Shown: positions 12,972-20,254 of the stretch, piece after piece | Numbering within the stretch: position 1 is the stretch's first letter | Layout of the letters: each line of letters opens with the position of its first letter | IMG/VR virus record: IMGVR_UViG_3300033144_003310 | Span: 1 to 20,254 of that record | DNA from: a virus | Length of the DNA stretch: 20,254 nucleotides | Direction: 5' to 3' (one strand) | Notes under the pieces: generated by a model | Told to the model about the DNA's origin: nothing | Databases searched by the model: none | The model's input: the letters and a program-made list of their open reading frames with translations, nothing else | Program-made: the position numbers and the translations under genes

Positions 12972-13793
12972 TCAATCGTCCAAGATGGGTTCAGCCACAC
13001 AACGACACTGAAAATCGTTCCCAGGGTGCCCTGTGATTGGTGGGGGGTCACTCCACAGGAAGACCTTCCCGTTATTCGCTTGGTGTGTTGCCCTCACCCT
13101 CTCATCCCCAACAGTTGACCACCTATATCGAAAAACTCCCGCATCTTCCTGCCTCTTTTTTGTGATCTGTCCGTTCAGTTTGGCTATCTGGTCCCGGGCT
13201 ATCAGCTGTGCCCTTGATCTTGAGACTTGATATCTAGACTCAAGGAGTTGACGTATCCTCTTCGTTGGAAGACCCTCCTCAAATCCCTCCCGAACTATAG
13301 ACCGAACATCAGAGAAGTAACGGTCGTCAATGGACTTGATTAGGTCAACATTTTCCTTGATCCAAGCCGCCCGAATAGCGGTTGCCGGGGTGCGCATAGA
13401 GACCCCAACCCTCGCAACCCGCTCAGGAGACACGAACATGTCTATCTGTTTCTGTTGCTGGTTGGTCGCAAACCGGTCTACACTTTTAGCTTGACCTCTG
13501 ATCGCGGATTGATTTGGGATCTGTCTCCTCTTGAATCCCCTCTCGACTGCTATCACAGCATTCATGAAGCGGTCTGAATCAGATTGGTCTGACCTTGATT
13601 TCTCGTTTATCTGTTTGCTGAACTGGTCAAACAATGGCCTCAGTTGATCTGAAAGGAGTTCCTTGGCAAGCCTCACACGCCTCATAAGAAAGGCCCGATA
13701 AGACCTCTCAACAGCAACAGGGAAAAGGGGCTTGTTGGCCCTCCTCCTTCTAGCGTCAGACCTCTTCTGATTCCTATTCTTTTGCCTGAGAAT
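12972..13793 (-). CDS. Mu gpF-like minor head protein (SPP1 gp7 family)
   Basis: The product is 273 aa from ATG 13793, which has GGAAACCCGG before it and overlaps the portal gene end by 20 nt; the frame is open further upstream to 13910, so the start is not certain. The C-terminus carries the Phage Mu F signature: ISRSRAQLIARDQ-like helix (SRSRAQLIARDQIAKLNGQ), FRYRWSTVGDERVRATH, NGKVFLW, and GHPGNDFQCRCVAEP. The N-terminus is Arg/Lys-rich. These proteins sit inside the head near the portal and may be injected. No toxin-like C-terminal extension follows the CRC motif. Gene order after the portal is standard. Confidence 0.88.
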   Translation of the reverse strand: MLRQKNRNQKRSDARRRRANKPLFPVAVERSYRAFLMRRVRLAKELLSDQLRPLFDQFSKQINEKSRSDQSDSDRFMNAVIAVERGFKRRQIPNQSAIRGQAKSVDRFATNQQQKQIDMFVSPERVARVGVSMRTPATAIRAAWIKENVDLIKSIDDRYFSDVRSIVREGFEEGLPTKRIRQLLESRYQVSRSRAQLIARDQIAKLNGQITKKRQEDAGVFRYRWSTVGDERVRATHQANNGKVFLWSDPPPITGHPGNDFQCRCVAEPILDD

Positions 13794-15216
13794 CATCCGG
13801 GTTTCCAATGCTCTGGGGTTCAAACTCAAGCTGAGCCTCCTCAAGCTCTTCACGCTCATTAACCTCATCCAAATCGACCGGCCTGATCTCTGGCTCCCAA
13901 CCACGGTCACTAAACCTGGAACGGGCTACATCATCAGGCCCAATGACTCCAGTGTTGATGTAAATCTGATCTGTTTCCGCATACGTCTTCTTGAGGGTTG
14001 CTGTCTCTTGCTCAGTCACTTCAAAGAATGGATTGAACTCTAAAGCCCAAACCGCCTGAGAACCCTCAGGACCATTCATCAAGATGGTATACAGTTCCTC
14101 CAACCTTCTCCTGAGGAGATGGTTCTGTATTGCTGCGATCACATCACCAAAGTTGTTCCGGCCCGATGCTCCATCTGTATTCAGTCCGCTGGGTGAATCT
14201 CCAAACAGGATGCTCTGGGGGATCGCCGTGACAGCTGAAAGAGCCTGTCTTGACTTGTCATCAAGTTGAGCCCATCCCGCAACATTGTCAACACTGCTCT
14301 CAAAGGTCTCACCCTCAAGGAGAAGAAGGACCCCAGTCAGGTTGATTGTTTGAGCAATCAGTTTCGCTCTCTTCAGGAGGGCATCTCTAGCATCTGAAAG
14401 GCCCTTAGTGTCCAGCCCCCTCAGCTTCAGAACCCTTGTCCTCGCATCATGGGACAGTCTAGCCATCTGACTATCAAGAACATTCTTGTTCCTCAGTTGA
14501 TCGTATGCAGCCTCAACAACGCTGTCATCAAACCCCATATTTTCAACCCTGACAGATGGGGGAAGCTTGGAACCCGGGAAGTAAATGACCCGAGACCTGT
14601 GGACCTCCCCACCCACAAAACCAGAACCCCCGGACATGCTAGGGGACAACTGCCATGACTCAACCTCCCTGAAGTTTGGGGAAGACAGATCATCATTCCA
14701 TGAAAGAGCCGATATCTCTCTCCTATCGAACACAGCAAGGTTCAAGATCTCCCCTGGGTTGTCCCTGTCCATCGGCTCTGATAGATCCTCATCCTCATTC
14801 ACAATCAGGATGACTGATCCCCCGTATAGCCTGGCCCACCTTAGAGCGTCCCCAACATTCTCATTGATGTTCAGCCTCTTGTCTTCCTCAGACATCAAGA
14901 CTTGATCTGGTTCCTCACCCTCCTCAGACTTTGAGACAACCTTCCAACCCTTCCGAGTGGCTTGGTCTGGAACTACATCAATGAACCGTTTAGTGTATCC
15001 ATCAAAACGGTACAGGGCTGTCAGGGCTGAACAACTCTGAGGAGACCTGCGGCTGACCGTGCTCTGAGTTGTCAAGTCCCTTGATGTTCCTAGACCGCTA
15101 ACCATGTTCTCAAAGCTGTCTCCCCTAAACATCCTGGGGGTTTCCGCCTCTGGCCCTGGGAGCTGGGGATCAAAGCCGTCTGACCTCCAGGAAAAGAACC
15201 AATCTAACCAAGACAT
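13774..15216 (-). CDS. Portal protein (DUF1073-like)
   Basis: The product is 480 aa. It carries CSALTALYRFDGYTKRFIDV, VPDQATRKGWKV, DALRWARLYGGSVILIV, HRSRVIYFPGSKLP, then MARLSHDARTRVLKLRGLDT, and the characteristic AIPQSILFGDSPSGLNTDGA followed by a helix with IQNHLLRRRLEELYTILM. The P-x-x-x-L-F-G-x-S-P-x-G-L-N motif and the R/D-x-x-A-R-x-G-W opening identify DUF1073-type portals. The portal ring is the DNA entry and exit channel and the platform for terminase. AGAGGG lies eight bases before ATG 15216, and a good promoter lies just upstream. Arginines here often use AGG/AGA, for instance three in a row near 14107-14115. Confidence 0.93.
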   Translation of the reverse strand: MSWLDWFFSWRSDGFDPQLPGPEAETPRMFRGDSFENMVSGLGTSRDLTTQSTVSRRSPQSCSALTALYRFDGYTKRFIDVVPDQATRKGWKVVSKSEEGEEPDQVLMSEEDKRLNINENVGDALRWARLYGGSVILIVNEDEDLSEPMDRDNPGEILNLAVFDRREISALSWNDDLSSPNFREVESWQLSPSMSGGSGFVGGEVHRSRVIYFPGSKLPPSVRVENMGFDDSVVEAAYDQLRNKNVLDSQMARLSHDARTRVLKLRGLDTKGLSDARDALLKRAKLIAQTINLTGVLLLLEGETFESSVDNVAGWAQLDDKSRQALSAVTAIPQSILFGDSPSGLNTDGASGRNNFGDVIAAIQNHLLRRRLEELYTILMNGPEGSQAVWALEFNPFFEVTEQETATLKKTYAETDQIYINTGVIGPDDVARSRFSDRGWEPEIRPVDLDEVNEREELEEAQLEFEPQSIGNPDDSQAKE

Positions 15217-15239
15217 ATGAAGACCCTCTAAGAGATGAC

Positions 15240-15268
15240 ATCATAACAGCCAATAGGCACACAGTAAA
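15240..15268 (-). promoter_or_regulatory. Sigma70-like promoter before portal operon
   Basis: The minus strand reads TTTACT, 17 bases, TATGAT. The -10 box matches 5 of 6 and the -35 box 4 of 6 of the sigma70 consensus, with ideal spacing. Transcription would start near 15233, leaving a leader of about 17 nt with ribosome-binding site AGAGGG before the portal ATG. This 143-nt gap is the only sizeable noncoding stretch ahead of the head genes, so this is the likely start of the morphogenesis transcript. Confidence 0.6.
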
Positions 15269-15359
15269 CGACACCCGATCTACCCCCTCAGGTTGCAACC
15301 ACAACAGCCACAACCCACAACAACGTGAAAGGGAAGATCAGATGACGTTTGCTATGTTC

Positions 15360-15626
15360 CTATAATGATTCCTTGTTGAAGCCAGGGGGCAGGGTCTGAA
15401 CCAACAACATGTGGTTCTGGACATCCTTACACGTAGCAGTGAAGTGACCCGAGGGGGCTTGTTCAATCTCAAAAGGTAAGACAGAATCACAGATTAAATC
15501 CTGACCACAGCTCAACTGAACATAGTGAGGAAATGTAGAGTCACCAACTGTGATGGTGAAGATCTCAGCATCTTCCATCAGCTTCAGGATTATTTTGGAT
15601 ATTTCGAGTTTTGCTGTTGCATTCAT
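15360..15626 (-). CDS. Hypothetical small acidic protein
   Basis: The product is 88 aa from ATG 15626, which has AGGTG five bases before it. It opens MNATAKLEISKIILKLMEDA and continues with a strand-rich middle (IFTITVGDSTFPHYVQLSCG) containing three cysteines in total, and ends LPPGFNKESL. It has no membrane segment or known motif I recognise. It is the last gene of the accessory island before the portal promoter, and follows the upstream gene by 13 nt. Function unknown. Confidence 0.7.
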   Translation of the reverse strand: MNATAKLEISKIILKLMEDAEIFTITVGDSTFPHYVQLSCGQDLICDSVLPFEIEQAPSGHFTATCKDVQNHMLLVQTLPPGFNKESL

Positions 15627-15639
15627 TTTTTCACCTATG

Positions 15640-15951
15640 TTAGAATAGTGGGTTGGAATCATCCCACTCTAATTCTTGTTCTTCTTCGTCGGATATGCTT
15701 GGGTCACAGTAAATGTGGTTCATCATCCAGCTTTCAACCTTGAGGACGTGTAAAGACCAGAGGACCGGGCCCCTCGACCTGAACCCTCCCCCTGTGTCTC
15801 CCTCCCTCTCAGCGGCGCGCCTGATGCGGTTACATGCTTGAGACCAGCTATATTCCCCCCTGTGGTTCTTGTATAGGGACCCGCAACCCTCACAGGATGT
15901 TAGGTCAAGCCATGGGGGAAGCTTTGGGCGTTTGATTCTTGGGTTGACCAT
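15640..15951 (-). CDS. Hypothetical protein with CxxC motif
   Basis: The product is 103 aa if started at ATG 15951, 10 nt after the previous gene's stop; the frame is open further upstream to 16056 inside that gene, so the start is tentative. It begins MVNPRIKRPKLPPWLDLTSC and has CEGC at about 20-23 plus further cysteines, with a basic middle (ACNRIRRAAEREG) and a strongly acidic C-terminus (DEEEQELEWDD). A zinc- or nucleic-acid-binding role is possible but unproven. I do not recognise the family. Confidence 0.6.
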   Translation of the reverse strand: MVNPRIKRPKLPPWLDLTSCEGCGSLYKNHRGEYSWSQACNRIRRAAEREGDTGGGFRSRGPVLWSLHVLKVESWMMNHIYCDPSISDEEEQELEWDDSNPLF

Positions 15952-15961
15952 CTTTCCCGCC

Positions 15962-16150
15962 TTACCCCAGGGTGACTGTCCAGCCGTCGAGATTTCCTCC
16001 CTCATGAACATCAGCCTCAAGCAATTCTTCAAGTCTTGAGTCAGCGATGTGGCCACAAGCTAGGAACGTCAATTCCTCAAGGTTTTCACTCCAGGTAAAT
16101 CTAACGAACTGTGAGGGGTCAGAGTTCAGTGTTGCTGTGATGGTCATCAT
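15962..16150 (-). CDS. Hypothetical small acidic protein
   Basis: The product is 62 aa, starting MMTITATLNSDPSQFVRFTW and ending GGNLDGWTVTLG. It is acidic and looks like an alpha/beta mini-domain. GAGGA is placed five bases before ATG 16150; a second ATG follows immediately. Its upstream region (16151-16226) is one of the two duplicated regulatory modules described here, with an extended -10 box and a conserved 23-bp element. No family is recognised. Confidence 0.62.
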   Translation of the reverse strand: MMTITATLNSDPSQFVRFTWSENLEELTFLACGHIADSRLEELLEADVHEGGNLDGWTVTLG

Positions 16151-16173
16151 TCTTGTCCTCTGTTGATGTTCTA

Positions 16174-16182
16174 CATGTAACA
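16174..16182 (-). promoter_or_regulatory. Extended -10 promoter element, copy A
   Basis: The minus strand reads TGTTACATG, an extended -10 (TGn plus TACATG). It is followed after five bases by CATCAACA and a GAGGA ribosome-binding site. The aligned position in copy B reads TGGTACATA. No good -35 box is seen at the usual spacing, so an activator or the upstream 23-bp element may be needed. Found by comparison of the two upstream regions. Confidence 0.42.
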
Positions 16183-16203
16183 CACCCAAACGGGTCCATC
16201 ATG

Positions 16204-16226
16204 CCCCTGACATTTACTTTACAATT
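16204..16226 (-). promoter_or_regulatory. Conserved 23-bp upstream element, copy A
   Basis: This matches copy B (16687-16709) at 20 of 23 bases. On the plus strand its core is CTGACATTTACTTTACAATT. It lies 24 bp upstream of its -10 box, compared with 35 bp for copy B. Conservation outside coding sequence suggests a protein-binding site. Confidence 0.55.
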
Positions 16227-16289
16227 GGGTATCATCGGTCTTCGTTTCGTTGGCTTGCATGGTGTGCTCCTTGGGTGCTACCACCAAAT

Positions 16290-16314
16290 CCCCGTCCTCT
16301 CGCGAGGTACGGGG
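16290..16314 (-). terminator. Strong hairpin after zinc-ribbon gene, terminator-like
   Basis: On either strand CCCCGT pairs with ACGGGG, and after a one-base bulge CCTC pairs with GAGG around a TCGC loop, giving 10 base pairs, mostly G-C. It starts about 24 nt after the stop of the gene ending at 16338. In the minus-strand transcript it is followed by ATTTGG, a poor U-tract, so it could be a weak terminator or an operator. The rest of the 187-nt gap (16151-16337) contains copy A of the regulatory module and nothing else I can support. Confidence 0.45.
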
Positions 16315-16337
16315 CTGGTGTGGGGTGGGGGGCTGTG

Positions 16338-16619
16338 CTATGCCGCTTTCCTCATTGCTGCTTTGGCCTGGCGTTCTTCTTTTCTGCATTCACGGCAATG
16401 GCTTTGAACCCGGATTTCAATCCTGGAAAATGACCCATCAGCCTTGAGGCCTCTCTTCATCCGGCGGATTCCGAAGAGAGCATCAACCTCACCTTCAAAG
16501 GCATGAAGGTTGCAGCGAGGACAGGAGCAAACAGCATCAGCGAAGCTTAGGCGGACTGCTGACTTCATGATTTCAGTGTTCATGTTGTAGGCCGCTGGGT
16601 TGTTGGTGTTGAGGGTCAT
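16338..16619 (-). CDS. Small zinc-ribbon-like protein
   Basis: The product is 93 aa from ATG 16619, preceded by GGAG; the frame extends to 16727 but that part is the regulatory spacer. It carries CSCPRC (about residues 31-36) and HCRECRKEERQ (C74/C77 region), separated by about 40 residues with a basic FGIRRMKRG segment. Two paired-cysteine knuckles with a basic insert are common in small phage zinc-ribbon proteins that resemble the metal-binding half of HNH-type proteins. The catalytic histidines are not evident, so nuclease activity is not claimed. Nucleic-acid binding is inferred. Confidence 0.68.
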   Translation of the reverse strand: MTLNTNNPAAYNMNTEIMKSAVRLSFADAVCSCPRCNLHAFEGEVDALFGIRRMKRGLKADGSFSRIEIRVQSHCRECRKEERQAKAAMRKAA

Positions 16620-16645
16620 GGTCGATCTCCGTTGTTGATGATCTA

Positions 16646-16654
16646 TATGTACCA
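16646..16654 (-). promoter_or_regulatory. Extended -10 promoter element, copy B
   Basis: The minus strand reads TGGTACATA, an extended -10. With TTGGCG 17 bases upstream as a 4-of-6 match to the -35 box, this is a plausible sigma70 promoter. It is followed after five bases by CATCAACA and then GGAG before ATG 16619. The alignment with copy A supports it. Confidence 0.48.
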
Positions 16655-16686
16655 CGCCTGATTGATTCCGCCAACAAGATTCACCA

Positions 16687-16709
16687 CCCTTGACATTTGC
16701 TTGACAATT
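16687..16709 (-). promoter_or_regulatory. Conserved 23-bp upstream element, copy B
   Basis: On the minus strand it contains TGTCAAG twice, 11 bp apart (TGTCAAG, CAAA, TGTCAAG), preceded by AATT. It matches copy A at 20 of 23 bases and lies 35 bp upstream of its -10 box. The tandem half-site layout fits a DNA-binding protein contacting one face of the helix. Confidence 0.55.
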
Positions 16710-16713
16710 CCAC

Positions 16714-16735
16714 GGTCGAACGCCCAAAATCGACC
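16714..16735. repeat. Inverted repeat GGTCGA/TCGACC
   Basis: A perfect 6-bp inverted repeat with a 10-nt spacer lies in the noncoding gap (16620-16766), five bases from the 23-bp element. It may be a weak terminator for the gene ending at 16767 or an operator half-site pair. There is no U-tract on either strand. Confidence 0.4.
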
Positions 16736-16766
16736 CCTTAACTTTACATAATCTCTGGCATCCCCC

Positions 16767-17156
16767 TCAGGACAGTATTAGGGCAATAGCCCTGATAGCT
16801 GATGCTAGGCTTGATCCTGTAGACCTGTAAAGGTTCTCTGTCTGTTCCCTGTGTTGGTCCTCCCTGTCTACAGATACGCGAACAAGACTTGTTGATTGAG
16901 AGTGTGAGTCAGGACCTACTCTGATTCTGATCTCACATGTTGATATCCACCTTTTGACTCCCCTTTTATCCGTCCACTCTTTCTGCATGTCTCCAGAGTA
17001 AACAGCGATGATGGAAGAATAGGACTCAAGATCTTCTGTGATTGAGGTCCTGAAGAACTCGACACACCTATGTGTGATGGGGTCTAGGCTCGATCCCTCC
17101 AGAATGGTCCTGAATAGTTCCTGAGTTGGATTCATCAACCTTCTTGGCTCACTCAT
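16767..17156 (-). CDS. Hypothetical protein of accessory cassette
   Basis: The product is 129 aa, starting MSEPRRLMNPTQELFRTILE. It has a helical N-terminus and a basic/polar strand-rich second half with RWISTCEIRIRVGPDSHSQS and VRVSVDRED, and no membrane segment. ATG 17156 overlaps the previous gene by 8 nt (ATGAGTGA) and is driven by a near-perfect ribosome-binding site, GGAGGTGA, inside the upstream gene. Its base composition is like the main phage genes (few CpG), unlike the two genes upstream. I do not recognise the family. Confidence 0.7.
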   Translation of the reverse strand: MSEPRRLMNPTQELFRTILEGSSLDPITHRCVEFFRTSITEDLESYSSIIAVYSGDMQKEWTDKRGVKRWISTCEIRIRVGPDSHSQSTSLVRVSVDREDQHREQTENLYRSTGSSLASAIRAIALILS

Positions 17157-17167
17157 CACTCACCTCC
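17148..17167 (-). repeat. Gene-junction repeat, copy 1
   Basis: The minus strand reads GGAGGTGAGTGATGAGTGAG. It encodes the end of one gene (VSDE, stop), contains a full Shine-Dalgarno GGAGGTGA, and starts the next gene (ATG AGT GAG). An identical 20-bp copy lies exactly 280 bp away at 17428-17447. Confidence 0.9.
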
Positions 17168-17436
17168 TTACAGACTTCCAGAATCTCATCTGGGTGGTCG
17201 TAAGATATGAGCGGGTAGGCGCTCCTCGCAGATCCAATGCCGTCGTCGTGCTGATACAGCGGCGCAGGAAGTCCGCGCCATTTGCCCGTCCGATAGTTCA
17301 TCTTCGCGGATAACAGCCTTCCGACATCCAACCACAAAGCGCCAGCCGCGACCTTGGCCATAGCCTCGCGATTCAGCTTCCAGATTCCGCCGTCGCCAGT
17401 GATGTACAGCGCTTTGACAGACTTGATCTCACTCAT
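17149..17436 (-). CDS. Hypothetical protein of accessory cassette, CpG-rich
   Basis: The product is 95 aa, starting MSEIKSVKALYITGDGGIWK. It has ALWLDVGRLLSAKMNYRTGK, KWRGLPAPLYQHDDGIGSA and an acidic C-terminus ending EVSDE, the same five residues that end the gene upstream. ATG 17436 overlaps that gene by 8 nt. The segment coding ITGDGGIW is part of a 25-bp repeat also found, in another frame, in the upstream gene. Most of it is CpG-rich, but the last ~30 bases look like the phage background. No family is recognised. Confidence 0.66.
   Translation of the reverse strand: MSEIKSVKALYITGDGGIWKLNREAMAKVAAGALWLDVGRLLSAKMNYRTGKWRGLPAPLYQHDDGIGSARSAYPLISYDHPDEILEVCKEVSDE
17379..17403. repeat. 25-bp direct repeat, copy 1
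   Basis: This 25-bp stretch, with core CAGATTCCGCCGTCGCCAGT, recurs exactly at 17487-17511. Here, on the minus strand, it encodes ITGDGGIW. Confidence 0.9.
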
Positions 17437-17447
17437 CACTCACCTCC
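17428..17447 (-). repeat. Gene-junction repeat, copy 2
   Basis: This is identical over 20 bp to 17148-17167. It again supplies VSDE-stop for the upstream gene, the ribosome-binding site and the ATG AGT GAG start of the downstream gene. Confidence 0.9.
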
Positions 17448-17827
17448 CGCCCTTCGGCGTCGAGCAGTACGAGGGTGCCCCGCTCCTCCAGATTCCGCCG
17501 TCGCCAGTGATACCCACCGTGCAGTGCGTTCTGAACGATGTTCCGCACACGGGTCGGGGACAGGAACCGCGAGCCTTGGGCGGCGTAGAAGCAGCCCACC
17601 TCCACCGGCTTACCGTCACATGCGAGGACGAGGGCATGCCTGGCAGCAGAGGTAAAGCTCCGCGCCGGGAGCCATCGCGGCTCTGTGGTCCACGTCTCCC
17701 CTTCGTCATCTGTTTCCCAGTCGCAGCACCATGCCCTTGGGGGTCTTGCCCCACACGGCCCTTCGTGGAGCAGCCCGTGTGGATCGCCCTCTTCGGGGAT
17801 GAGCAAAACAGCGTGTACCTTACTCAT
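17429..17827 (-). CDS. Hypothetical protein of accessory cassette, CpG-rich
   Basis: The product is 132 aa from ATG 17827, starting MSKVHAVLLIPEEGDPHGLL. It has a Cys/Trp-containing segment AWCCDWETDDEGETW, a central CDGKPVEVGCFYAAQGSRFL, and a basic helix RVRNIVQNALHGGYHWRRRN near the end, closing with EVSDE. An extension of the frame upstream to 17920 lies in the previous gene and is not favoured. ATG overlaps that gene by 8 nt (ATGAGTAA). The whole gene is CpG-rich. A nucleic-acid contact by the RRR helix is possible, but no function is claimed. Confidence 0.66.
   Translation of the reverse strand: MSKVHAVLLIPEEGDPHGLLHEGPCGARPPRAWCCDWETDDEGETWTTEPRWLPARSFTSAARHALVLACDGKPVEVGCFYAAQGSRFLSPTRVRNIVQNALHGGYHWRRRNLEERGTLVLLDAEGREVSDE
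17487..17511. repeat. 25-bp direct repeat, copy 2
   Basis: This is identical to 17379-17403, but here the minus-strand gene reads it in a different frame, giving YHWRRRNLE. Confidence 0.9.
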
Positions 17828-18224
17828 TGATCCGCACCTTGAGAGCCTCGTGGATGTAATAGAGCCCGGCCGGTATCGTGTCCGGTATCGAGATCGCCCC
17901 GTCTGACGCGACGACCTCACCCATTCCCGCGCCTGTGCCTCCTCCGACGGAGTAAATGTGGCCCGGTGTCATGTCGCCCCACTCGGGGATGCTGGACGTA
18001 CGCAGGGACACCCAGCCGCAATGAGCCGCGACGGGTGCCGCGATAGGGCCGTCTGTCTGTCGGATGACGATACCGGTTGACGTGGCCTCCCAGGTGAGCC
18101 ATTCGTGGGACTCCCCAGTGATCGCATCAATGCACGGATTGACATCACAGCTGACAGCATCCAGAGAGCAGGGGTCAGGAAAAGTTTGGGCATATGCTGT
18201 GATGGTGAGCAATAGGGTTGTCAT
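17820..18224 (-). CDS. Hypothetical beta-rich protein, first gene of accessory cassette
   Basis: The product is 134 aa from ATG 18224, which has GAGAGGA shortly before it; a GTG at 18272 in the same frame sits in the putative promoter. It starts MTTLLLTITAYAQTFPDPCS, a short hydrophobic stretch with A-Y-A that could be a minimal export signal, although it lacks positive charges. Four cysteines in the first 50 or so residues and a Gly-rich SVGGGTGAGMGEV suggest a small beta-sandwich. The first ~90 bases look like background phage DNA; the rest is CpG-rich. No family is recognised. Confidence 0.62.
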   Translation of the reverse strand: MTTLLLTITAYAQTFPDPCSLDAVSCDVNPCIDAITGESHEWLTWEATSTGIVIRQTDGPIAAPVAAHCGWVSLRTSSIPEWGDMTPGHIYSVGGGTGAGMGEVVASDGAISIPDTIPAGLYYIHEALKVRINE

Positions 18225-18262
18225 GTGTCCTCTCTTGTTTAGGCCTGGGGCCGTTCTGGACA

Positions 18263-18291
18263 ACCGTATCACTCCTGATGGAACCCGTCAA
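18263..18291 (-). promoter_or_regulatory. Putative promoter for accessory cassette
   Basis: The minus strand reads TTGACG, 17 bases, TACGGT. The -35 box matches 5 of 6; the -10 box is weak (3 of 6). It lies about 40 nt before ATG 18224 and is divergent from the promoter at 18327-18356, leaving 35 bp between their -35 boxes. Confidence 0.45.
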
Positions 18292-18326
18292 GCATAACCC
18301 CTGAAAATGTTTCTTGTTGAAATCCC

Positions 18327-18356
18327 TTGACGGCTGAAGTCTGAAGGGGTTAAGAT
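18327..18356 (+). promoter_or_regulatory. Putative promoter for the Mom-like cassette
   Basis: The plus strand reads TTGACG, 18 bases, TAAGAT (5 of 6 and 4 of 6 matches). After it come TCAAT, CATCAACA and AGGGAG, then ATG 18381. The CATCAACA leader is shared with the two minus-strand extended -10 promoters. No GATC cluster of the kind that controls Mu mom is present here. Confidence 0.5.
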
Positions 18357-18380
18357 TCAATCATCAACAAGGGAGAAATC

Positions 18381-18614
18381 ATGGGTGATAAACTCAAAAC
18401 GGATGCAGAAATCTTGAGGGCGCTCCCTGAGGGCTCCAAGGTCATCATTGATGAAATCACTTGGAAAAAGACTGACAATTATCACCGATGGTCATGTCAT
18501 AGCGTGAAGGGTGGACGCATCACCTATGAGGGAATGTGGAACTGTGCTGCGGTTGCACTTGTCATCCAAAAGAACCCGGAAAAGTCAGTTTCTTTTAAGG
18601 GGGTCCACAAATGA
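18381..18614 (+). CDS. Small unknown protein translationally coupled to Mom-like gene
   Basis: The product is 77 aa, starting MGDKLKTDAEILRALPEGSK. It has a strand-turn pattern KVIIDEITWKKTDNYHRWSC and later GRITYEGMWNCAAVALVIQK. GGGAGAA lies before its ATG. Its stop overlaps the ATG of the next gene by 4 nt (ATGA), so the two are probably coupled. In phage Mu the small zinc-finger protein Com precedes and overlaps mom; the layout is the same, but this protein has only two cysteines and no CxxC pair, so it is not Com by sequence. Function unknown. Confidence 0.75.
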   Translation: MGDKLKTDAEILRALPEGSKVIIDEITWKKTDNYHRWSCHSVKGGRITYEGMWNCAAVALVIQKNPEKSVSFKGVHK

Positions 18615-19282
18615 GATTGCCAGGATATGACCTGCAACCATGCTCAATTGGGGATGTTAGACACTTGTTCCTGAAGTATCACGGTTATGCTAGTGTTGGA
18701 TCTGTATCAACCTACTCTTTTGCCGTTTATGAATCTGGTGATCCAATTGCGGCATTTGTTTGGCAACCCCCCCCGCCTGGGGCCTCAAAATCCGCCTGTC
18801 CAACTACACCCCAAGGCGTTCTGTCCTTATCCAGGATGGTGGCTGTTCCGAGATCATGCAGGGCTTTGAACCATATATCCAAACCCCTGAGAAGACAGAT
18901 GAGGAACCTCATAGACAGAGGAAGGTGGCCTGTCCTGATCACGTTCCATGATGAGGGAATGGGTCACACTGGTCATGTTTATAAGTGTTCAGGCTGGACA
19001 CCTACAACAAAAGCCTTGAGACCGGCCTATGTTGACCACAATGGCAGCAGGGTTAGCGTTTACAGCAATGGAAAGAAGAGCGCTAGGAATTTGGAGAAAA
19101 TTGGAAACACTACCATTCAAAGATGGGAACACAGGGCTTGCAAAGTGGGGTCAGAATCTTCCTGGATGTTTAAGCATGGTTGGAGAAGGAAACCAATCCC
19201 GGGTAAGGTCTGGTCAAGCGGAAATCAGGCCTACAAATATGTTAAACAAGAGGCCCGTCTAGCCCCCAAAGGCGTTGAGTAG
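18611..19282 (+). CDS. Mom-like DNA adenine modification protein (GNAT-type fold)
   Basis: The product is 223 aa. It shows the Mom-type pattern: an early KYHGY (23-27), AVYESGDPIAAFVW (38-51), LSLSRMVAVP (71-80), a helix LNHISKPLRRQMRNL (86-100), PVLITFHDEGMGHTGHVYKC (107-126) and SGW. The S/T-x-x-D...G-H-x-G-x-x-Y-x-x-x-x-W block is the hallmark I remember of Mom and its relatives. Mu Mom modifies adenines in phage DNA to an N6 methylcarbamoyl-type base and protects it from host restriction. It overlaps the upstream small gene by 4 nt. Its 3' end overlaps the convergent terminase gene by 24 bp. Substrate here is unknown. Confidence 0.8.
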   Translation: MRLPGYDLQPCSIGDVRHLFLKYHGYASVGSVSTYSFAVYESGDPIAAFVWQPPPPGASKSACPTTPQGVLSLSRMVAVPRSCRALNHISKPLRRQMRNLIDRGRWPVLITFHDEGMGHTGHVYKCSGWTPTTKALRPAYVDHNGSRVSVYSNGKKSARNLEKIGNTTIQRWEHRACKVGSESSWMFKHGWRRKPIPGKVWSSGNQAYKYVKQEARLAPKGVE

Positions 19283-20254
19283 CCGGTCGTATTCTTCCGT
19301 TGGATCTTCCCCAGCCTCAAAATAATAGACGGCCTGAGATTCCGCATCAATCTCATCATCATTTGACCCATTTGGGAATGACAGATGCTGATCGATAAAC
19401 CCACCAAGCCAGTGGGCATCATTGTTGGCTGGTAGCAAAACGTCTCCAGCTTCATAGCGCACCTGGGAAAACTTGGCGCGGGTTTGCTTGTCTCCAATGG
19501 CCCCAGGGTTGACAGCAACAACACCCAAGATCCCGTGAATGTTCTTGGCCAACTGTATAAGGGCCGTCCCATTGCTTTTGTCCTCAATCAGCTTCACTCT
19601 AGCTGTGGGCCACTTCTTGCAAAGGGTAAGGAACGCTGACAGCAACTCGTTGATTTCCATCTGTTCACAGATCCTGTCCAACAGATAGAGTTTGCTTCCC
19701 ATCTTCCCCCAAACCTGAAGAGCAGAGAAGTCATTCTTCTTGCCCTTCTTCTCTGCAGCGTCCACACTGATCACAACATCATCCATCTGATGAACTATGA
19801 CCCAGGGTGGAACGCTATATCTGTGGTTGAACCAGTGACTCAGGAACTTTGTTCCCTGTTGTGGGGTCGGTCTCTGTTGGTGCTGTGAGGCCCAAGCTTT
19901 AGCCCTTTTGGGATCGTTTGCCCGTTCAGACACCCACTCATCATCATACCGGTCGGGGTTCAGAAGTTCTCCAGGCCTCTTTCTTGGGTCCTCCCTGTTC
20001 GCGTGGGGATGCTCAGGATCATATTGAGTAGGCAAGACAACGTGATCAAATCCTTGGCGGTTGCTGGGGCCGTCTGGGGCATACTTGCCCAACAGATACC
20101 CGGGGATGTCGTTCTCATGTAGGCGCTGCATGATAGTGACTCTAGCCCCGGTCTTGGGATCGTTCAGCCTGGATTCAATGACGTTATCATATATGTCAAT
20201 CGCGCCCTCCATCCTTTTGTTCACCTGCTCTGGTGATCCCATTACATCTTTCAC
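19259..20254 (-). CDS. Terminase large subunit (partial, N-terminal ATPase outside window)
   Basis: The 331 codons visible are the C-terminal part. They include VTIMQRLHENDIPGYLL (39-55, end of the ATPase/linker), then the RNase H-like nuclease: VVISVDAAEKKGKKNDF (160-176, first catalytic Asp at D165), RVKLIEDKSNGTALIQL (219-235, E224/D225), and NGSNDDEIDAESQAVYYF (295-312, D300/D303). The nuclease cuts concatemeric DNA at packaging, and the ATPase drives it into the head. The first visible codon is GTG at the edge but is probably internal. Instead of the portal, an accessory island follows. The stop lies inside the tail of the convergent Mom-like gene. Confidence 0.94.
   Translation of the reverse strand: MKDVMGSPEQVNKRMEGAIDIYDNVIESRLNDPKTGARVTIMQRLHENDIPGYLLGKYAPDGPSNRQGFDHVVLPTQYDPEHPHANREDPRKRPGELLNPDRYDDEWVSERANDPKRAKAWASQHQQRPTPQQGTKFLSHWFNHRYSVPPWVIVHQMDDVVISVDAAEKKGKKNDFSALQVWGKMGSKLYLLDRICEQMEINELLSAFLTLCKKWPTARVKLIEDKSNGTALIQLAKNIHGILGVVAVNPGAIGDKQTRAKFSQVRYEAGDVLLPANNDAHWLGGFIDQHLSFPNGSNDDEIDAESQAVYYFEAGEDPTEEYDRLLNAFGG

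Follow-up and report, generated by a model that had tools for sequence, protein, structure and literature searches.

Two small genes lie back to front between the terminase and portal genes of a viral contig. The original prediction read the larger as a Mom-like DNA modification gene and the smaller as a partner in an arrangement that mirrors com-mom of phage Mu. The locus raises the question of whether the larger gene belongs to the Mom family and, if so, what the smaller gene and the inverted placement have to do with it. The window, meaning the whole stretch of DNA analyzed, is 20,254 nucleotides long and contains the following features.

13774..15216, minus strand: portal protein, bounding the island on the side away from terL (phrog_146, E=7.2e-90)
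15217..19258, both strands: accessory island of ~4 kb from portal to terL, with minus-strand orphan ORFs and the inverted cassette
18285..18371, no strand: region between divergent genes, containing three perfect 8-bp inverted repeats that interleave
18327..18356, plus strand: promoter-like TTGACG-18-TAAGAT ahead of the cassette (consensus scan, 9/12)
18369..18375, plus strand: Shine-Dalgarno sequence AAGGGAG for the 77-aa gene (read from the sequence)
18381..18614, plus strand: 77-aa orphan gene upstream of mom (ORF with Shine-Dalgarno sequence; best codon-usage frame of six)
18597..18603, plus strand: Shine-Dalgarno sequence AAGGGGG for mom, within the end of the 77-aa gene (read from the sequence)
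18611..19282, plus strand: mom-like gene, 223 aa; Mom family member with GNAT fold (profile match, AF2 model)
19259..20254, minus strand: terminase large subunit gene terL, truncated by the contig end (phrog_38, E=1.1e-49)

The 223-amino-acid protein and the Mom family

A profile search, proposed as a check on the original Mom assignment, bore that assignment out: the 223-aa protein matched the Pfam Mom family PF25680 at 33.7 bits (cut-off, 27.1; E=3.7e-8) and, in PHROGs, phrog_1384, annotated as Mom-like DNA modification protein (E=1.1e-7). Moreover, a local Mom family profile built without the window's protein scored it at 39.4 bits, against at most 8.1 for 1,000 shuffles. Identity to 17 aligned named Mom members was 12 to 23% (about 12 to 24% overall), and BLASTP gave no significant pairwise match to Mu Mom. 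Single-protein scans found no close Mom relatives in IMG/VR or GTDB genomes and no close relatives of the window's TerL in IMG/VR, and a nucleotide search with positions 18250 to 19300 found no match among named phages. Plasmid matches to Mom (E of 0.2 to 1) were dismissed because they fell in unrelated reading frames.

Structure prediction, the second check proposed, pointed to the same family. An AlphaFold2 (AF2) model made from an input alignment of 66 sequences had a mean pLDDT of 74, with most of residues 1 to 140 at 80 to 95 and most of residues 149 to 193 low. Its top PDB match was 8bv8, a crystal structure of the S124A mutant of phage Mu Mom (Foldseek E of 1e-7), on which VIA-align superposed 167 residues with a Z of 16.5 and an rmsd of 3.5; further GNAT acetyltransferases ranked behind it, with a Z of at most 15.2. 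The title of 8bv8 terms S124A inactive, and Mu S124, the last residue of an NSES motif, aligned with S90 of the 223-aa protein. Residues H24, R75, D114, H119, G121, and Y124 were invariant in the 66 aligned proteins, the window's included. The 223-aa protein also carries Y25G, E72S, S111T, A126C, N128G, and K205N, which are changes at columns otherwise invariant in the two Mom clades sampled, and A113H, a change at a column nearly invariant in those clades. We conclude that the 223-aa protein is a divergent member of the Mom family, a known kind of enzyme, with the Mom fold and its key residues kept.

Two comparisons place this member within the family. It shares with phage Mu Mom (NC_000929 Mup55; PDB 8bv8) the Pfam family, the GNAT-type fold, the S124 equivalent, and the H, R, D, and Y columns, but its C-terminal part has diverged, its gene is inverted relative to the virion genes, and com is absent. 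The best matches among named phages were the Mom-like proteins of ICP1 and Vibrio phage F100 (24 to 25% identity; E of 8e-4 and 4e-6, respectively), whose genes are codirectional with their neighbors, have other genes upstream, and keep the conserved positions that are changed in the window. In tblastn searches of phage records, Mu Mom matched 284 and the F100 protein matched 304, across many host genera, and thus Mom in a phage other than Mu is ordinary. A scan of IMG/VR found 442 relatives of one Mom subclade, and Mom enzymes occur in jumbo phages too (PMC7824862). As a separate observation, residues 29 to 167 of the Mom-like protein encoded at positions 2249 to 2965 of locus L137 also matched the homing endonuclease family phrog_3339 (E of 6.8e-6), and the phrog_3339 family may contain Mom-nuclease fusions.

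An inverted cassette between terL and portal

The window's phage is contractile tailed, with portal, head morphogenesis, head protease, major head, sheath, tape measure, and baseplate genes all on the minus strand. The cassette is the only plus-strand pair and points towards terL, so the mom-like gene does run opposite to the virion genes, and terL (phrog_38) and portal (phrog_146) flank the island as the original prediction had placed them. Both cassette ORFs start with ATG, and the predicted ATGA overlap of 4 bp between them was found at positions 18611 to 18614. The 3′ ends of mom and terL overlap tail to tail by 24 bp (19259 to 19282). For both ORFs, the annotated frame had the top codon score of six and zero stops, with scores only near neutral.

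The gap between terL and portal is ~4 kb in the window. In distant relatives found through portal, the gap is about 0.1 to 0.3 kb (L004, L005, L006, L010, L011, L012, and L014) or about 0.8 kb (L007), and no Mom was found in the portal relatives L004 to L014. We conclude that the cassette consists of extra genes lying between genes that are close together in most of the distant relatives, an arrangement by which morons are recognized.

The remainder of the island is populated by small ORFs, at least eight of them on the minus strand between 15360 and 18272; those scanned matched nothing in Pfam convincingly and matched PHROGs weakly at best. Within it, positions 17251 to 18250 have a GC content of 0.60 to 0.63, against about 0.50 elsewhere, and overlap three minus-strand orphan ORFs (17149 to 18272) with GC3 near 0.69; by composition, this segment looks like separately acquired DNA.

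How unusual is the inverted placement? In an ORF-based count over two Mom subclades, 109 of the 135 loci with both neighbors visible had mom codirectional with both, 3 had it inverted relative to both, and none had an inverted pair. Two IMG/VR loci provide precedents. In L035 (3992 to 5640), Mom is inverted, and its stop overlaps by 4 bp with that of a head morphogenesis gene beside a phrog_146 portal; in L127, Mom is inverted beside terminase genes. Both are single genes without the 77-aa partner and belong to Mom subclades other than the window's. We conclude that inverted placement of Mom is uncommon but precedented.

The upstream region and the 77-amino-acid gene

The original prediction gave the cassette its own promoter. 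A promoter-like plus-strand sequence, TTGACG-18-TAAGAT, does lie ahead of the 77-aa gene and matches 9 of 12 consensus positions. Consensus matches in the region numbered 7, versus 3.5 ± 1.8 in shuffles (~2 standard deviations above). A promoter belonging to the cassette is plausible from the sequence; against separate transcription are the weakness of the consensus match and the finding of no terminator adjoining the end of mom.

The same region contains three perfect 8-bp inverted repeats: CCGTCAAG/CTTGACGG at 18285-18292/18326-18333, TAACCCCT/AGGGGTTA at 18295-18302/18345-18352, and CTTGTTGA/TCAACAAG at 18313-18320/18364-18371. The shuffle mean for 18285 to 18371 was 0.144, and three or more such repeats occurred in 13 of 1,000 mononucleotide shuffles and in 18 of 1,006 overlapping stretches sampled from the window, a sample that takes in 18285 to 18371 itself. 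Moreover, AGGGGTTANGNTT has two copies in the window, both within 18285 to 18371 and in opposite orientations, and the plus-strand copy spans the predicted −10 element TAAGAT. The repeats suggest two divergent promoters that share elements, and it is possible that they serve as common operator or promoter elements.

What the 77-aa gene contributes is harder to read. The protein had no detectable relatives in Pfam, PHROGs, NCBIfam, phages, plasmids, IMG/VR, GTDB genomes, or the PDB, and searches of Pfam and PHROGs at E values up to 10 returned no match. A single-sequence AF2 model (pLDDT of 52) gave no viral structural match at an E of ≤0.001 and was not used. Kinship with ribosomal protein uL24 was dismissed: the NCBIfam score was 18.3 bits against a cut-off of 53.7, and the PDB match (E=0.45) paired residues 8 to 72 with uL24 residues 20 to 85. 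We rejected the uL24 reading because the aligned stretch of uL24 lies mostly past its KOW motif.

One explanation is that an analogue of Com has evolved independently in the form of the 77-aa protein, which would be made first and bind the mom translation start or promoter so as to time or limit toxic Mom. The gene is the only other plus-strand gene, sits directly upstream of mom, is coupled to it by ATGA, and follows the three interleaved repeats, and control of mom expression matters in Mu, where Mom shields phage DNA from restriction and mistimed expression kills the cell (PMC4461284). Like Mu com, it is a small gene just upstream of, and overlapping, mom. Mu Com, however, is a 62-aa protein with CxxC knuckles, and com and mom overlap by 80 bp, whereas the only cysteines of the 77-aa protein, C39 and C54, stand apart and form no CxxC, in line with the lack of Com zinc knuckles noted in the original prediction, and the overlap is 4 bp. 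Com of Mu was among the neighbor proteins compared directly with the 77-aa protein, and no match was listed. The Mu-type GATC control sites, predicted to be missing, were indeed not found: there is no GATC between 18124 and 18698 and hence none in the intergenic region, 18273 to 18380. Across the whole window, GATC occurred 141 times versus 78 expected from base composition alone.

A survey of other mom-like loci for the 77-aa gene, also proposed with the original prediction, came back empty, as ORFs around 145 other Mom genes included none significantly like the 77-aa protein (best phmmer E, 0.34). Most of the Mom genes sampled lacked a constant small partner. A 4-bp overlap with the upstream gene was present in 23 of the 122 Mom genes that have a same-strand upstream neighbor, with neighbors ranging from 90 to 493 aa, and therefore ATGA is common phage packing. 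The window's mom, moreover, has a strong Shine-Dalgarno sequence of its own, and its start folds no better than shuffles (z of 0.02), a result we consider uninformative because Mu's own region, included as a control, scored alike (z of −0.21). We conclude that the com-mom parallel is not supported, as a Com-like reading fails on most points tested, and a Com analogue is a rather unlikely identity for the 77-aa protein. The same low standing applies to its broader form, in which the protein would be a new regulator of a kind other than Com, or a specificity partner of the divergent Mom, would act through the repeats or the coupled start, and would represent a second evolution of mom control, in a phage unrelated to Mu. 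The 77-aa gene is probably a small accessory gene cotransferred with mom; none of the tests pointed to it as a regulator, and it is at most a candidate for a regulator or cofactor.

Proposed role of the cassette

The reading we favor, and consider likely, is that the cassette is a moron-like unit producing a divergent Mom for anti-restriction DNA modification. The Mu Mom adduct is N6-carbamoylmethyladenine, and the PDB names the Mu Mom entry a "methylcarbamoylase." In the proposed scheme, the cassette would be an accessory transcription unit inserted backwards in the terL-portal island, with a predicted plus-strand transcript starting at a promoter in 18273 to 18380, on the strand opposite that of the late genes. 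The 77-aa protein would be translated first, and ATGA would couple mom translation to it. The divergent Mom would then modify adenines in phage DNA, and DNA so modified would be cut poorly by host restriction enzymes. Enzyme activity, the modified base, separate transcription, and the anti-restriction role are all steps that we infer. Palindromes in the window are mildly avoided (376 6-mers versus 471 expected), and thus the genome bears no mark of long protection, with no relaxed selection seen.

The seven changes at invariant or nearly invariant columns tell against the Mom account, in that the enzyme may have a different substrate, an altered activity, or none at all. In one such case, the 223-aa protein would be a Mom-derived GNAT enzyme with another substrate or modification, and the 77-aa protein would be its subunit or specificity factor. 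This fits the changed columns and the diverged, low-confidence C-terminal part, but the residues invariant across the broad set, the Mu S124 equivalent among them, are kept and Mu Mom is the top structural match, and we regard a change of substrate as improbable. A decaying or nonfunctional mom remnant, which the low identity and the loss of several conserved residues might suggest, is very unlikely given the intact 223-codon frame, strong Shine-Dalgarno sequence, best in-frame codon score, and retained key residues.

The window adds to the Mom family a divergent branch that differs at columns invariant elsewhere in the sampled clades, and it provides an example of mom inserted backwards beside packaging genes. 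Were the small gene truly to control mom, the cassette would represent a second solution to the problem of restraining a toxic DNA-modifying enzyme.
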